From: a virus
Reading direction: 5' to 3' (one strand)
IMG/VR virus record: IMGVR_UViG_3300033145_001791
Location: 1 to 28,106 of that record
DNA length: 28,106 nt
Below, in pieces: positions 7,364-28,106 of this stretch. The translations under genes were made by a program, and so were the position numbers. The notes beneath the pieces are model-generated. The model did not search any database, was not told the origin of the DNA, and was given only the letters and a program-made list of their open reading frames with translations. The stretch's first letter is position 1. Each line of letters starts with the position of its first letter.

Positions 7364-7726
7364 TCAACCTCCAAAAATTTTATTAACATCGTTCAGGTAT
7401 CGGCCTGAAAATTTTCTCACAATCGGCCACAAGGCGTCGTGTCGGCGGTCATTACACAAAGTTAAATAAACACCATAATCGACACCGTGCGCAAGGAAAA
7501 AACCCATGTCTTTTCCCTCTTCAAATATATCAGCAAACATCCGGGCCGCGGCTTGCGCCGTCCAATTAAACCAGTATTTTCCCCTGGCGTTAATGATCGG
7601 CGGTTGTACCGACAAAAAATAATTTAAAACCAGTGTCGCATAATACCTATTCAGCGCCTCCAGCATCGCCACCCGTTTTACGGTCAATTCTAGTTTTATC
7701 CTTTGGAAGACTTGAATCACGGACAT
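7364..7726 (-). CDS. HK97 gp10-like head-tail joining protein
   Basis: 120 residues from ATG (MSVIQVFQRIK). An in-frame TTG four codons upstream (7736-7738) could extend it, but GAGGG lies 5 bases before this ATG, so I chose the ATG. The sequence ends with features of the gp10/tail-completion family: ARGKYWFNWTAQAAARMFAD, then HGVDYGVYLTLCNDRRHDAL, then WPIVRKF. The YGVYLTL strand followed by a short charged turn and an Ala/Leu-Pro segment is typical. Its place between connector and tail terminator genes agrees. The first 80 bases overlap the previous small gene in another frame. Confidence 0.65.
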   Translation of the reverse strand: MSVIQVFQRIKLELTVKRVAMLEALNRYYATLVLNYFLSVQPPIINARGKYWFNWTAQAAARMFADIFEEGKDMGFFLAHGVDYGVYLTLCNDRRHDALWPIVRKFSGRYLNDVNKIFGG

Positions 7727-7889
7727 TTTTACCCTCAATTATAGTTATTTGACCTCGTAATATACTCACAAGGGTTTTGGCTTCATCAAAAGTTAAAAAA
7801 ATAGTTTTACCATTCAGCGGTAAAATTACAAGATTCGTTTTATTATCAATTATTTCATTTTTTTCCACAACCTTTATATCCTTAACCAC
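7647..7889 (-). CDS. Small protein of unknown function in the connector region
   Basis: 80 residues starting at a GTG (7887-7889) with GGAGG 10 bases upstream; the start overlaps the stop of the preceding gene by 8 bases, typical of translational coupling. Residues 1-55 look folded (TNLVILPLNGKTIFLTFDEAKTLVSILRGQITIIEG, two strands and a helix); the last 25 are basic and glycine-rich and lie in the region overlapping the next gene by 80 bases. Many siphophages keep a small non-structural ORF here. I do not recognise the family. Confidence 0.6.
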   Translation of the reverse strand: MVKDIKVVEKNEIIDNKTNLVILPLNGKTIFLTFDEAKTLVSILRGQITIIEGKNVRDSSLPKDKTRIDRKTGGDAGGAE

Positions 7890-8286
7890 GTACAGAACCC
7901 TCCGTCTTATCTTTTAATTCGTATTCATAACCAATTAAAGTATTATATTTAATCAGTTTTTTTATCTGCATCACCTTTAACTCAATACTATTATAAGTGA
8001 ATTCAAGCCCGATGTCAACTACGGTCTGGTAATCACTTATCATGAAATATACCCGTTTTTCATATATGATAGGTGATGAATCCTCCATTATTTTTTTAAT
8101 CCATTTCTTCTGAAAACTTATCCTTACAGGATTCGTGTAACTCTCCACAGTTGGTACGCCGGCCTTATCCTCAATATCTTCTTCATACCCGTTATCAACT
8201 AACGGGTATGAATCGCCTGATAGTGTGAACGGATTTAAATTTATCCGGTCCTTGTGATATTTTCTTAACATGGCGCCACTACTCAT
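7882..8286 (-). CDS. Putative head closure / connector protein
   Basis: 134 residues. Beta-rich with repeated short strands (VRISFQKKWIKKI, RVYFMISDYQTVVDIGLEFTYNSIELKVMQIKKL), consistent with small beta-barrel head closure or stopper proteins, which are encoded between the gp6-like adaptor and the gp10-like protein. The start overlaps the preceding fibre-like gene by 8 bases. Identification rests on gene order and size; it could also be an accessory protein. Confidence 0.5.
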   Translation of the reverse strand: MSSGAMLRKYHKDRINLNPFTLSGDSYPLVDNGYEEDIEDKAGVPTVESYTNPVRISFQKKWIKKIMEDSSPIIYEKRVYFMISDYQTVVDIGLEFTYNSIELKVMQIKKLIKYNTLIGYEYELKDKTEGSVRG

Positions 8287-8995
8287 GTATCACATCGTAT
8301 TCATGTATGCCTGGGAAAAAATTCATAGTTCCGGTATTTTGTCCCGGACACATACACCGTGCCCATATTTTCGTCCCTGAAATTGCAATCTCTGATTGCC
8401 CCAACACCGGACCGGCGTCGATCTGATTCGATAATGGTTTTACCGGGAATTCTGTAACAGTTTTATCAATCAGGGCTTGCGCGCCACTCACACCGGCGGC
8501 AAGTTGTATATAATAAACAGAATTTTTTTCAGCGCTTGATATTTCAATTCTATGCAAATCAAAAGCAACTTTTCCAGGGTCCGCAGGAGTATCAGAAGAC
8601 CCTAAAATTTGAATCCAGGAACCCCATGTATTATTTCCGGCGTCCATGATAAAGGCGCCCAGACCGCCGGGCGTTCCGATTCTCACGGCAACATGAATTT
8701 CCCCGTCAATTTGCGGCGTTCTTTCGAACCAACGCTCATTGGAGTGCAGATGCGTTTCAATTACCTCCAACTCTTCTGACATTTCATCGACATCTGATTC
8801 AATATCGTTAACCGTGCCCTGAATGTCCGTGACAATTATTTCTATATCATCGACATCATCTCCGATAGCAATTACTACAGTTTCTATATTAACCACTATA
8901 ACCAGTACACTATTAATTATTACCAATATGTCATTAACCACTGATAATATATTATTAACTATCGCTGTTACTCGATCGAATAAATTATGTTTCAT
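8279..8995 (-). CDS. Putative head or neck fibre protein with trimeric coiled-coil stem
   Basis: 238 residues. Residues about 1-85 are an unusual stem of I/V at heptad positions with N and D between (VNNILSVVNDILVIINSVLV, IIVTDIQGTVNDIESDVDEM), with only one lysine (K2) in the segment; this is characteristic of parallel trimeric coiled coils in phage fibres. Residues about 95-238 form a beta-rich globular tip (PQIDGEIHVAVRIGTPGGLG, then a C-terminal FFPGIHEYDVIHE) with paired cysteines in WARCMCPGQ. It sits within the connector genes, so a head fibre or neck whisker is the simplest inference. The start overlaps the upstream stop (TAATG). Confidence 0.6.
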   Translation of the reverse strand: MKHNLFDRVTAIVNNILSVVNDILVIINSVLVIVVNIETVVIAIGDDVDDIEIIVTDIQGTVNDIESDVDEMSEELEVIETHLHSNERWFERTPQIDGEIHVAVRIGTPGGLGAFIMDAGNNTWGSWIQILGSSDTPADPGKVAFDLHRIEISSAEKNSVYYIQLAAGVSGAQALIDKTVTEFPVKPLSNQIDAGPVLGQSEIAISGTKIWARCMCPGQNTGTMNFFPGIHEYDVIHE

Positions 8996-25757: not shown

Positions 25758-26129
25758 ATGAAAACAGGCGATATCTTACTAAATACGTATGCAGGGTCAA
25801 CAAACCCGGACAGGGTTTTGATTTTTTTATGTTATGATGAAGGTTTTATAAAGTGTTGGAATCAGGAAGGTGTAGTTTTAAATTATGGTCTGGGTAATAA
25901 ATTTGAAGTTATAGGAAACATACCGATAAAAGATATTATAATAGAACATATTGAAAAGGTGGAGGATATTGAAATAAATAAATACAATGGTACTGAATAT
26001 GACAGGGGTTTTCTTGATTGTCTCGAATTTTTTATAGAGAATCTTGATATTGATTTTTTTAAAAATATAACCAGAGGAAAATATTACAGTAAACTATCTA
26101 CATATAAACCGGATCAAGAAAAAAAATAA
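25758..26129 (+). CDS. Unknown protein, 123 residues
   Basis: ATG at 25758 with GGTGGTGATG upstream, 23 bases after the previous gene. Residues 1-70 look like a small beta-barrel (MKTGDILLNTYAGSTNPDRV, then LIFLCYDEGFIKCWNQEGVV), then charged helices (GFLDCLEFFIENLDIDFFKN). No motif recognised. Last gene before the RNA region. Confidence 0.6.
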   Translation: MKTGDILLNTYAGSTNPDRVLIFLCYDEGFIKCWNQEGVVLNYGLGNKFEVIGNIPIKDIIIEHIEKVEDIEINKYNGTEYDRGFLDCLEFFIENLDIDFFKNITRGKYYSKLSTYKPDQEKK

Positions 26130-26138
26130 AAAAAGTTC

Positions 26139-26166
26139 TTGACATAAAATAATGGATATGTATAAT
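26139..26166 (+). promoter_or_regulatory. Consensus sigma-70 promoter of a small RNA
   Basis: TTGACA (26139-26144), 16-base spacer (26145-26160), TATAAT (26161-26166), both exact. Starts about 26173. There is no coding start in reach before the terminator, so it drives an RNA. Confidence 0.85.
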
Positions 26167-26172
26167 TAGAAT

Positions 26173-26288
26173 TCAATATGGGCAAATTAAAAAAAATAAT
26201 TGTTTCAGGATGCTTTTTAAGTCGTGATTTTGTAGGGTTTTATTATTCCCTGCTTGCCCAGGTCGCGACTTAAAAAGCATTTTTTTTT
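26173..26288 (+). ncRNA. Structured small RNA with pseudoknot and terminator
   Basis: Predicted 115-base transcript from the consensus promoter. A very long stem, ATGCTTTTTAAGTCGTGA (26210-26227) with TCGCGACTTAAAAAGCAT (26263-26280), 18 bp with one G-U pair, ends in a run of T. In its loop GTAGGG (26232-26237) pairs with CCCTGC (26248-26253), and TTGCCCA (26254-26260) is complementary to TGGGCAA (26179-26185) in the 5' part, so a pseudoknot is possible. No ORF. Target and function unknown; it may be a regulator or a decoy. Not a known family as far as I can see. Confidence 0.7.
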
Positions 26289-26289
26289 G

Positions 26290-26377
26290 TGCGGGTTAGT
26301 GTAATGGAAGCATTTCAGGGCTGGAATAAAATCTTTCTTGCCGATGGAAAGAGGCGGTTCAATTCCGCCACCCGCAA
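26290..26377 (+). tRNA. tRNA-shaped element (88 bases, serine-like) with disrupted anticodon stem
   Basis: Acceptor TGCGGGT (26290-26296) pairs with ACCCGCA (26370-26376), 7 of 7. D-arm GTGT/GCAT with the canonical loop AATGGAA containing GG. T-arm GGCGG/CCGCC with loop TTCAATT, perfect. A variable-arm-like hairpin TCTTTC/GAAAGA (26332-26352) suits a class II tRNA. A GGA anticodon after U33 (26323-26325, Ser) is possible, but the 5-bp stem there (CAGGG against AAAAT) has no pairs. CCA is not encoded. Either a decayed tRNA or a tRNA mimic. Confidence 0.5.
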
Positions 26378-26518
26378 GAACGCTGCGGCGCCGTTGGCGT
26401 TAGGTGTTTGAAGTAATTTTAGTAGGGAAACGGTAATTCCTTCGGCAAGGTATTCCGTAACGAAAAAAAAGAGGAGGACGGTCTATTTGAAATAAAGATT
26501 TTATAGCTTAGGTAATCG
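26378..26518 (+). other. Structured non-coding stretch
   Basis: No coding frame. Hairpins: AACGC/GCGTT at 26379-26401, and a stem at 26430-26458 (ACGG/CCGT, AAT/ATT, CCTT/AAGG, loop CGGC, a bulge and a mismatch between). It lies between the tRNA-like element and the terminator at 26519 and would be part of the same RNA if the small RNA terminator is read through. GGAGGA at about 26474 resembles a ribosome site but has no frame following. Confidence 0.45.
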
Positions 26519-26556
26519 ACCCGGCGGGTATGAAGAGGCGCGCCGGGTATTTTTTT
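26519..26556 (+). terminator. Rho-independent terminator before the nuclease gene
   Basis: ACCCGGCG (26519-26526), 14-base loop, CGCCGGGT (26541-26548), then A and a run of seven T. Eight perfect G/C-rich pairs. It ends 15 bases before the ATG of the nuclease gene. Confidence 0.8.
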
Positions 26557-26570
26557 GGAATTGGGAGAGT

Positions 26571-27092
26571 ATGAAACATTTTGAACTATGTAAATTAACA
26601 GCTGAAAGATTTATAAAAAAATCTGATATTGCTTTTTACGAATATCAAATTATGGGGGCCGTGGAACACCCCGACGTCTTAACATTTAAAAATAGTTATT
26701 CAACTCTATTTGAAATCAAAGTTAATTATACAGATTTCTTAAAAGATAAAAATAAAATATGTCGAATAAAATACACCTGTAATTATTTTTTAAGAATGAA
26801 AGGTGAACATGATAAAATTTACTGGGAAAATCGGGGCCTGAAAGAATTCATAAAAGAAAAACCACACCTCGGCAGAAAAAGGTTTTATGTATGTGTCAAG
26901 GGATTGATACAACCTGAAGAGGTCGGGTCATGGGGTCTGTATTGGTATCATAACGATAGATTTTATTTGAAAAAAGAATCAAAAATATTCAGACATAACT
27001 CTTTTTATGAAAATAAAATATTAGTAAATGCTATCAAAAGATTAAGCGCCGGGTTTGATGATAATATATTGATAAAAAATTATGAAAAATAA
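26571..27092 (+). CDS. PD-(D/E)XK nuclease-like protein
   Basis: 173 residues. GAVEHPDVLTFKNSYSTLFEIKVNYTDFLKD (positions about 29-58, in pieces: HPDVL and LFEIKVNYTDF) fits the P-D ... E-x-K core of PD-(D/E)XK nucleases, similar to MmcB-like phage and bacterial proteins: strand with D, then strand with E-I-K, then helix ending DFLKDK. The C-terminal half includes GLYWYHNDRFYLKKES. GGGAG stands 6 bases upstream. The last 11 bases overlap the methyltransferase start, so the two are coupled. It may act in restriction, repair or DNA processing; substrate not known. Confidence 0.6.
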   Translation: MKHFELCKLTAERFIKKSDIAFYEYQIMGAVEHPDVLTFKNSYSTLFEIKVNYTDFLKDKNKICRIKYTCNYFLRMKGEHDKIYWENRGLKEFIKEKPHLGRKRFYVCVKGLIQPEEVGSWGLYWYHNDRFYLKKESKIFRHNSFYENKILVNAIKRLSAGFDDNILIKNYEK

Positions 27093-27822
27093 ATATAATT
27101 ATTTAGATTTATTTTCTGGAATAGGTGGCTTTGCAAAGGGCGCACACATGGCAGGTATGAAATTTGAAAATCATTATTTTTCTGAAGTTGAAAAATATTG
27201 TTGTAAATTATATAAACTTAGATTTCCTAATTCTATAGAATTGGGTGATATTACTAAGATAGATTTTGAGTGGCTAAAAATATATTCATCACTTGACAAT
27301 AGTGTCAAGAAATGCTATGATTATTCCAATTCAGATGATTGGAGTAAAAATATGGCAGGAAAATTGAAAAAATTAACAGAGCAACAAGTAAACGAGTCTA
27401 TAAAAATGTATGAAAAAGGAATGTCTTTAGCAGATATTGGTGGATATTTTGCAGTATCAAAGCAGGCTATGTGGGATTTATTAAGACGTAGAATAAAATT
27501 AAGAAGTAACAAAAGATATGGAAAAGAAAATCATTTTTATAGAGGTGGTAAAAAAGCAGATGATAATGCTCAAAATATATTAGAAGTAGCAATAAGAAAA
27601 GGAATAATAAAAAGAAAAACACATTGTGAAGTGTGTAACAATACAGGAACATTTAGAGATGGTAGAACAAAAATACAAGCTCATCATTGTAATTATAATA
27701 AACCATTAGATGTATTATGGTTGTGTCAAAAATGTCATCACGCATGGCATAAAGAAAATAATGTAATTGAAAAGGAAACAAAAAAGGAAGCTACCTGGAT
27801 AATAACAGGCGGCTTCCCGTAA
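27082..27822 (+). CDS. N-terminal part of DNA cytosine-5 methyltransferase, interrupted by an HNH gene
   Basis: 246-codon frame. Residues 9-16 (DLFSGIGG) are motif I for SAM binding; SEVEKY (34-39) is motif II; GDITKIDFEWLK (55-66) is motif III. Then about 168 codons of HNH insertion follow, and KEATWIITGGFP (about 235-246) returns to methyltransferase sequence, where motif IV (GGFPC) should come, but TAA (27820-27822) stops the frame before the cysteine. Without the insert, EWLK would join KEATWIITGGFP directly. The catalytic Cys is in another frame (next entries). Start ATG is in the nuclease gene's overlap. Confidence 0.8.
   Translation: MKNKYNYLDLFSGIGGFAKGAHMAGMKFENHYFSEVEKYCCKLYKLRFPNSIELGDITKIDFEWLKIYSSLDNSVKKCYDYSNSDDWSKNMAGKLKKLTEQQVNESIKMYEKGMSLADIGGYFAVSKQAMWDLLRRRIKLRSNKRYGKENHFYRGGKKADDNAQNILEVAIRKGIIKRKTHCEVCNNTGTFRDGRTKIQAHHCNYNKPLDVLWLCQKCHHAWHKENNVIEKETKKEATWIITGGFP
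27324..27344 (+). promoter_or_regulatory. Hairpin enclosing the HNH gene's ribosome site
   Basis: TTCCAAT (27324-27330), loop TCAGATG, ATTGGAG (27338-27344); seven pairs with one G-U. GGAG (27341-27344) is the Shine-Dalgarno of the ATG at 27352 (7-base spacing). Another perfect 7-bp hairpin, CTTGACA/TGTCAAG, lies just before it at 27292-27309. In phage T4 such hairpins hide the ribosome site of homing endonuclease genes in some transcripts. Confidence 0.55.
27352..27822 (+). CDS. HNH homing endonuclease inserted in the methyltransferase gene
   Basis: 156 residues from its own ATG, in frame with the methyltransferase. N-terminal helix-turn-helix around KGMSLADIGGYFAVSKQAMW; C-terminal zinc-bearing HNH: HCEVCNN (CxxC at 182-185 of the fused frame), AHHCNYNKPLDVLWLCQKCH (HH, N, CxxC) and HHAWHKENN (H). 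This arrangement of small HNH phage endonucleases (HTH plus HNH) is well known for free-standing mobile enzymes. The native end probably lies near WHKENNVIEKE; the last 12 residues are methyltransferase sequence. Codon composition is richer in A than the methyltransferase flanks. Confidence 0.8.
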   Translation: MAGKLKKLTEQQVNESIKMYEKGMSLADIGGYFAVSKQAMWDLLRRRIKLRSNKRYGKENHFYRGGKKADDNAQNILEVAIRKGIIKRKTHCEVCNNTGTFRDGRTKIQAHHCNYNKPLDVLWLCQKCHHAWHKENNVIEKETKKEATWIITGGFP

Positions 27823-27823
27823 T

Positions 27824-28106
27824 CCATGTCAAGATATTTCAATTGCTGGAAAGGGGGCAGGACTTGAAGGGAAAAGGTCTGGTCTTTGGTATGAATATTG
27901 GAGAGCAATTAGGATTTTACGACCTAAATTCGCAATCATGGAAAATGTCGGAGCCCTTACTTTTCGAGGACTTACGCAAGTCTTACAATCGTTGTATGAA
28001 ATCGGGTATAATGCTGAATGGCAAGATATACGAGCAGCCGACGTGGGTGCACCGCACCGCCGGGAAAGGATCTGGATTATTGCCTACCCCAAGGGCGTCC
28101 GATTGG
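27824..28106 (+). pseudogene. C-terminal part of DNA cytosine-5 methyltransferase (frame-shifted, cut by window edge)
   Basis: Frame starting CCA TGT CAA reads PCQDISIAGKGAGLEGKRSG, then LWYEYWRAIRILRPKFAIMENV (motif VI, ENV), QDIRAADVGAPHRRERIWII (motif VIII). It completes GGFPC with the catalytic Cys but lies +1 relative to the stop-ended frame: seven bases (27817-27823 region, with TAA) separate GGFP from PCQ. No start of its own is evident. It may be a decayed gene, or be reached by frameshifting or bypass. Continues beyond the right edge. Confidence 0.75.

Follow-up and report, generated by a model that had tools for sequence, protein, structure and literature searches.

How could a cytosine methyltransferase be produced from a gene in which a stop codon stands directly before the region of the catalytic cysteine? 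This question is raised by the window, the stretch of 28106 bases analyzed here, which is the whole virus record and whose right end falls within such a methyltransferase gene (Dcm). The open reading frame (ORF) at 27082-27822 begins at the Dcm start at 27082 and encodes motifs I-III, an HNH protein, and KEATWIITGGFP, followed by TAA. The TAA is at 27820, and the Dcm continuation PCQDIS is found in the +1 frame; the Pro codon CCG and the Cys codon TGT (27827) are separated by the seven bases TAATCCA at 27820-27826. The initial annotation had described a Dcm N half followed by an HNH gene and GGFP, with TAA and a seven-base offset ahead of the catalytic Cys, and all of it was confirmed from the ORF and from Pfam and PHROG matches; the offset written there as CCGTAAT is the same event in a different phase. 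The features of the locus are as follows.

27082-27279, + strand: Dcm N half, motifs I-III (MKNKYNYLDLFSGIGGF...GDITKIDFEWLK); Pfam PF00145, residues 6-63.
27293-27321, + strand: predicted sigma70-type promoter of the HNH gene, TTGACA-17-TATGAT; from the sequence.
27341-27344, + strand: GGAG, the HNH gene's ribosome binding site; from the sequence, with a ribosome binding site before ATG in most other copies.
27352-27822, + strand: HNH endonuclease with an N-terminal helix-turn-helix, in frame with the Dcm N half; PHROG 2340 endonuclease, E 7.8e-20, and HNH family alignment.
27772-27776, + strand: Shine-Dalgarno-like AAGGA, 5' of the hairpin; from the sequence and the Shine-Dalgarno counts across alleles.
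27786-27817, + strand: predicted RNA hairpin GGAAGCT (27786-27792) / GGCTTCC (27811-27817), with an inner stem CCTG/CAGG; from folding and covariation at the GGN third base.
27817-27819, + strand: putative take-off codon CCG, Pro of GGFP; from the sequence.
27820-27826, + strand: 7-nt insert TAATCCA, consisting of the stop TAA, one base, and the putative landing codon CCA; missing in uninterrupted relatives.
27827-28106, + strand: Dcm C half from the catalytic Cys (CQDISIAGKG...ENVGA...), truncated by the contig end; Pfam PF00145, E 2.1e-23.

The Pfam DNA_methylase model (PF00145) matches residues 6-63 with an E-value of 4.5e-10 and the C part from 27827, which continues after the Cys as CQDISIAGKG... 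to the contig end. The middle part of the ORF has an endonuclease as its PHROG match, and the membership of the window copy in the HNH family is given by matches to PHROG 2340 and 8446; none of the Pfam HNH models matched this copy above the cut-off. The conserved HNH domain extends to approximately 27762 and is followed by a tail, KKEATWIITGGFP, and the stop. Although the HNH gene lies inside Dcm, as had been claimed, it does not break the Dcm frame, because no stop interrupts the ORF between its beginning at the Dcm start and GGFP. The 3' arm of the window hairpin coincides with the GGF codons, and its last base is the first base of the take-off codon. A dyad, CTTGACA-ATAG-TGTCAAG, is located at the HNH promoter (27292-27309), and the promoter spacing is identical in L002, L003, L004, L011, and L027 and is 18 nt in L007. 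From the stop to the Cys codon of the window, the C-half frame holds no ATG, GTG, or TTG start codon.

An Rfam search of 26100-28106 up to an E-value of 5 gave no intron match. A group I intron was considered and rejected, as there is no Rfam ribozyme core and no room for one in an insert of 6-10 nt. Not far upstream of the Dcm operon, ARAGORN finds a tRNA-Gln (CTG) at 26290-26377, and positions 26211-26281 hold a long, near-perfect, terminator-like inverted repeat (TGCTTTTTAAGTCG...CGACTTAAAAAGCA), on which an Rfam microRNA label falls below the threshold.

The same interruption was found in 59 distinct viral or prophage Dcm alleles, each with an insert of 6-10 nt exactly at the Pro|Cys junction, and this recurrence at one exact place is far beyond chance. 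A search with the window ORF gave the phages L002, L003, and L004, which have the layout of the window at 45-57% amino-acid identity and carry the inserts TAACTG, TAACCG, and TGAATCA. Pattern scans of two kinds were used, some imposing TAA or TGA and others free of any stop requirement. In the unbiased scans, where any 3-33 nt of any sequence were allowed, true Dcm interruptions were only 6-10 nt long, and a stop followed the Pro codon immediately in 34 of 38 loci; three of these scans returned 23, 17, and 19 loci, among which 5, 15, and 1, respectively, matched by chance or at a normal site. The set comprises 45 alleles and 14 added later; eight duplicate loci, L117, and L178, L179, and L207 were left out, and L182 (insert TAATGTCCA), which did not pass the scripted filter, and the degenerate L203 are not counted. 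The window Dcm was identified as a C5 cytosine DNA methyltransferase by the profile match of both halves and by motifs, whose numbers (I, III, IV, VI) we take to be those in common use, and all 59 alleles have the ENV of motif VI.

As controls, 151 uninterrupted relatives without the insert (75 + 76 genes) were used, which are not phylogeny-matched to every case. According to the initial annotation, its reading would fail if uninterrupted relatives also contained the seven bases; the comparison was made, and they are missing there. A block of seven bases is present in the window, but this length is not general, since it varies from 6 to 10 among the 59 alleles. Insert carriers made up 5 of 80 Dcm loci chosen solely by C-half similarity, and 4 of 80, all already known, when loci were chosen by similarity to another Dcm subfamily. 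In the trees, the interrupted alleles are scattered singly among uninterrupted genes; the nearest uninterrupted C-half relative of the window Dcm, cassette carriers aside, is L298. The insert occurs in alleles both with and without an internal HNH gene. Six cultured or named-record relatives (L165-L170) are all uninterrupted, and no cultured phage with the cassette was found; the Yersinia match L171 is an HNH gene at another place.

The inserts share a defined anatomy. Their lengths (n = 59) are 6 nt in 42 alleles, 7 nt in nine, 8 nt in two, 9 nt in four, and 10 nt in two, so that 46 are divisible by three and 13 (7, 8, or 10 nt) shift the frame. A stop lies directly after the Pro codon in 55 of the 59 (TAA 23, TGA 23, TAG 9; other 4), and double stops are present in some alleles, as in L055, L076, and L078; inserts with double stops include TGATAACTG, TGATGACCT, and TAATGAGCCA. 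The landing triplet abuts the Cys codon at every insert length. It is CCN in 33 alleles and YYN in 54, its second base is a pyrimidine in all 59, and its third base is free. Five landing codons (ACA twice, GCG twice, and ACG) pair poorly at base 1; these belong to L177, L185, L183, L041, and L075, where the base-2 rule is kept; the N half of L041 is, in addition, out of frame. At take-off, the codon is CCG in 36 alleles, CCT in 12, CCA in 10, and CAT in one, and is never CCC, which encodes the Pro of GGFP in 20/75 and 12/76 controls. Since the gap is variable and the landing position is fixed, only resumption at a fixed triplet fits these data. Bases 1-2 of the landing codon had drifted at 27 of 118 positions compared to 6 of 354 for the motif VI ENV codons of the same alleles; the landing-codon changes may date from the arrival of the cassette or be selected for resistance.

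A hairpin directly 5' of the insert and ending on the take-off codon is possible in all 59 alleles. Its 3' arm, GG(C/G/A)TTCC, corresponds to the GGF codons and one further base, the first of the Pro codon; the 5' arm covaries with it, such that the pairs at the GGN third base (n = 59) are C-G in 28, G-C in 27, U-A in three, and U-G in one. A scripted pairing rule recognized the hairpin in 58/59 cases, compared to 5/75 and 19/76 controls; the single exception, L199, was excluded by the loop-size rule only. The stretch of 62 nt up to the Pro codon folds with a mean energy of approximately −25 kcal/mol, compared to −8.6 in the 75 and −10.3 in the 76 controls, and the z-score against synonymous recoding is −3.5 in 45 cases and −0.5 in 75 controls. 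A Shine-Dalgarno match of at least 5 nt precedes the hairpin in 48/59 alleles, compared to 1/75 and 19/76 controls, among which the rate varies between subfamilies. Once the hairpin is folded out, the Shine-Dalgarno sequence comes near the landing triplet, and we infer that this geometry matters. The linker between motifs III and IV is shorter in uninterrupted relatives; interrupted alleles have 3-12 additional codons, which carry the Shine-Dalgarno sequence and the 5' arm of the hairpin, in addition to the 6-10 nt of the insert. The hairpin, the stop, and the YYN triplet are kept in alleles without an internal HNH gene. A stop at the take-off codon, a pairable landing codon, and mRNA structure at the take-off site, which were taken as the marks of bypassing, are all found in these alleles. 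As regards a nascent peptide signal, enzyme function would in any case conserve GGFP and the residues around it.

The insert is associated with HNH genes. A profile built from an alignment of 17 HNH copies retrieved 80 relatives, 44 of them near full length. Thirty-four of the 44 are internal to Dcm, with motif III before them and GGFP after them, and none of these 34 has an uninterrupted GGFPC; two of them (L190 and L203) lack the immediate stop. Another five (L193, L199, L201, L205, and L212) lie just upstream of an insert-carrying Dcm, and L209 adjoins a GGYP-type Dcm without an insert. For the 26 alleles without an internal HNH gene, profile searches find HNH-related genes at Dcm in nine: a second family, HNH_3, is directly upstream of Dcm in six (L014, L033, L077, L100, L110, and L150), and the remaining three are L051, L021, and L026; a zinc-type HNH at the Dcm of L009 was spotted by eye. 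Most internal HNH copies have their own ribosome binding site, and some have a strong promoter. A single open frame covers Dcm, the HNH gene, and GGFP in 14 of the 17 internal-HNH alleles with a visible motif I, and the frame is unbroken in eight more (L173, L177, L180, L181, L183, L185, L202, and L213). In L026 (locus positions 7480-8550, + strand), an HNH gene occupies a different frame within a 224-codon Dcm N half that is open to GGFP.

Traces of recombination are found at the insert site. In L033, L077, and L021, a motif I remnant of another, recipient Dcm precedes the HNH gene or the replacement N half; therefore, the mobile unit in these alleles comprises the HNH gene together with an entire replacement N half through the stop and the landing triplet. 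L110 is 96% identical to the uninterrupted L119 from the site onward and 71% identical before it, and in the trees the N halves of the HNH_3 type cluster, while their C halves are scattered among uninterrupted genes. This step in identity and the conflict between the N-half and C-half trees indicate that the insert site is a recombination boundary, which is what a break made at the site would be expected to leave. The test of HNH homing was whether related genes have occupied and empty versions of one site, together with co-converted flanks, and both were observed. The N halves of L108 and L150 differ by one base over 78 codons, their C halves diverge (88% at the amino-acid level), their landing codons are CCA and CTA, and only L150 of this pair has the upstream HNH_3 match.

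These observations probably reflect a homing cassette whose insert blocks its own DNA cut site and is removed in translation by a ribosomal stop-hop. In this proposal, which draws on comparative anatomy, the HNH enzyme would cut uninterrupted Dcm at the DNA encoding the invariant GGFP|CQ, and repair from the donor allele would join the cassette (the HNH gene plus the replacement sequence up to GGFP, the stop, and the landing codon) to the recipient C half at the Cys codon, where the breakpoint is seen in the alleles and the cutting is presumed. Because joining would recreate the target, the 6-10 extra bases would provide resistance. Extra residues between the catalytic Pro and Cys are expected to ruin a C5 methyltransferase. 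Since no extra residues are tolerated there, the insert bases would have to be removed in translation: the stop codon in the A site may stall the peptidyl-tRNA-Pro on CCN, which would then release and re-pair at the YYN before the Cys codon to give a scarless GGFPCQ. The hairpin reforming behind the ribosome and the nearby Shine-Dalgarno sequence could favour release and correct landing. As the window HNH is in frame inside Dcm, the hop product would be an enzyme with HNH between motifs III and IV, and termination at the window stop would yield the HNH product. A ribosome jump over the insert would leave the enzyme protein unchanged. It is also likely, if a little less securely so, that natural stop-hops of 3-7 nt, signalled by a Shine-Dalgarno sequence and a hairpin and spread by HNH genes, are widespread mobile phage elements at the catalytic Pro-Cys. 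The earlier suggestion of a homing target with a scar fits an insert that tracks HNH genes and sits at recombination breakpoints. Of the suggested hop or +1 shift, it is hopping that the stop, the landing codon, the hairpin, and the Shine-Dalgarno sequence suggest, but a +1 shift alone provides no general mechanism because the inserts are 6, 7, 8, 9, and 10 nt long. The comparative evidence thus favours a putative scar and a putative hop together.

The main alternative is that the cassette merely inactivates its host gene, with an uncuttable site and a dead enzyme, where the stop, the Shine-Dalgarno sequence, and the hairpin serve the end and the mRNA folding of the HNH gene and the C half is a recent leftover. 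The sporadic distribution of the alleles among uninterrupted genes agrees with this, as do the ribosome binding sites of most internal HNH copies, the strong promoters of some, and the existence of broken alleles. The N half is broken in L011, L041, and L053; the Dcm frame of the C half closes early in L020, L021, and L060 (3/39, compared to 0/74 controls); L205 has CAT as its take-off codon, and the site of L203 is scrambled. Homing elements usually include dead copies, and some of those found here may be dead too; the sporadic placement together with the several broken alleles would also agree with a cassette that just kills the enzyme, in some or in all cases. Inactivation, however, does not account for the hairpin, stop, and YYN triplet that persist without an internal HNH gene, or for a landing triplet that obeys a codon-like rule and drifts while ENV does not, and a single open Dcm-HNH-GGFP frame (14/17) is needless for a dead gene; we consider it doubtful, although it is the strongest of the rivals. 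L203 has, near position 1995, an HNH gene in frame inside Dcm with no stop; its catalytic stretch after GGFP is out of frame and reads CKGAS, after which the Dcm frame resumes, and it may be a decayed or re-used copy. The codon-position ratios are similar in cases and controls (0.52 and 0.52 for position 1 to position 3; 0.32 and 0.31 for position 2 to position 3). These equal ratios were considered as support for purifying selection on the C half and rejected, because the trees place each case among uninterrupted genes and because a +1 frame overlaps the C half and, counted from the Cys, stays open for 80 codons or more in 75/75 controls and 35/45 cases. Given the sporadic origin of the alleles, intact C halves and control-like substitution are no proof of use, and a recent arrival is possible. 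In the window, this overlapping frame occupies 27843-28106, and its PHROG, 1008, is named DNA methyltransferase. Overlapping cytosine methyltransferase frames have been noted earlier, in part of the text of PMC4351075.

Three other explanations have considerably less to recommend them. A split enzyme, in which translation stops after GGFP and re-initiates nearby with the aid of the Shine-Dalgarno sequence and the hairpin to give two polypeptides that assemble, is very unlikely. The order of Shine-Dalgarno sequence, hairpin, stop, and an NTG 2-6 bases on does resemble termination-reinitiation; this NTG consists of N (A 31, G 17, T 6, C 5; n = 59) and the TG of the Cys codon. However, its frame is wrong, and the reading frames that it opens have no more than 8-73 codons, with 8-31 in most (39 alleles), the C polypeptide would lack the catalytic Cys because the landing triplet is never ATG, GTG, or TTG, and the YY rule is left unexplained. 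Restoration of the frame by stop-codon readthrough or simple frameshifting appears more improbable still: 46/59 inserts are multiples of three, as readthrough would need, but the remaining 13 have identical stop, landing triplet, and hairpin features, double stops occur, and readthrough would place two residues between Pro and Cys, with LC or SC instead of PC in many alleles. Random gene decay, which the initial annotation had also offered, is the least probable account of the window Dcm. Damage is indeed seen elsewhere in some alleles, namely the six with a broken N half or an early-closing C half listed above, but decay leaves the conserved RNA features unexplained, and 59 distinct alleles with one anatomy at one site refute it as a general explanation.

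If the stop-hop reading is true, the element is a translation-level counterpart of introns and inteins, and it would give a reason for the signals to arise, as a selfish gene must alter DNA whose protein cannot change. To our knowledge, T4 gene 60 is nearly the sole case of programmed bypassing in a bacterial system. Dozens of compact and diverse natural cases would make bypassing a comparative science and would reveal the sequence requirements for a ribosomal jump over a stop codon. Gene calling is affected, in that interrupted methyltransferases are annotated as broken or missed, and the finding is also relevant to searches for comparable joints hidden in other invariant active sites. A literature search gave no report of a Dcm stop-hop element; preprints and most subscription papers were outside its scope.

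Like group I introns and inteins with HNH genes, the Dcm cassette puts a homing gene in a conserved active-site region and would keep the host product intact; in contrast to them, it has no Rfam intron, only 6-10 nt at Pro|Cys, and a removal that would be ribosomal. In the Corndog mycobacteriophage tmp gene, an upstream HNH insertion led the authors to consider ribosome bypass, although this concerns a gene start in one lineage, and no repeated signal is described in the relevant section (PMC4351075). The mitochondrial byp inserts of Magnusiomyces capitatus are, as summarized in part of a review (PMC5009743), many, short, and removed at translation, with codons that are not always matched; the Dcm inserts are similar in these respects, with removal being putative. 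The byp elements are, according to the same part, independent of mRNA context, whereas the Dcm inserts occur in one gene family at one site with a strong mRNA context. No natural occurrences of in-frame stop hopping are known according to that part of the review, which describes synthetic stop-hops where matched codons flank a stop and 9 nt are read as one amino acid (PMC5009743). The CCN-stop-CCN of Dcm alleles has exactly this layout, but is natural, recurrent, and mobile, is accompanied by a hairpin and a Shine-Dalgarno sequence, and extends to landing codons with G-U pairing and to gaps of 4-7 nt besides 3.

The closest known system is T4 gene 60, which has, in the sections of two papers drawn on here, a stop after the take-off codon, a stem-loop, a nascent peptide signal, and a bypass that is likely protective against a homing nuclease (PMC5009743), in the context of the HNH homing endonuclease gene mobA (PMC3014915); the initial annotation had named this gene mobE, which is incorrect according to the latter source. 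So far as those sections go, T4 gene 60/mobA and the Dcm cassette share a stop 3' of the take-off codon, a stem-loop at the take-off site, a Shine-Dalgarno-like sequence, to which a landing role is assigned in T4, an HNH homing gene that splits a conserved phage enzyme, and a probable protection against the nuclease by the insert, as the Dcm insert would give in the proposed reading. They differ in that the T4 gap is 50 nt, occurs in a single gene, and is flanked by identical GGA codons, whereas Dcm has 3-7 nt between CCN and YYN at the active-site Pro-Cys of dozens of unrelated alleles, with the hairpin 5' of the gap, its 3' arm formed by the GGF codons, and the Shine-Dalgarno sequence before the hairpin. 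By this analogy, we place the Dcm cassette as a putative member of the T4 gene 60 kind.
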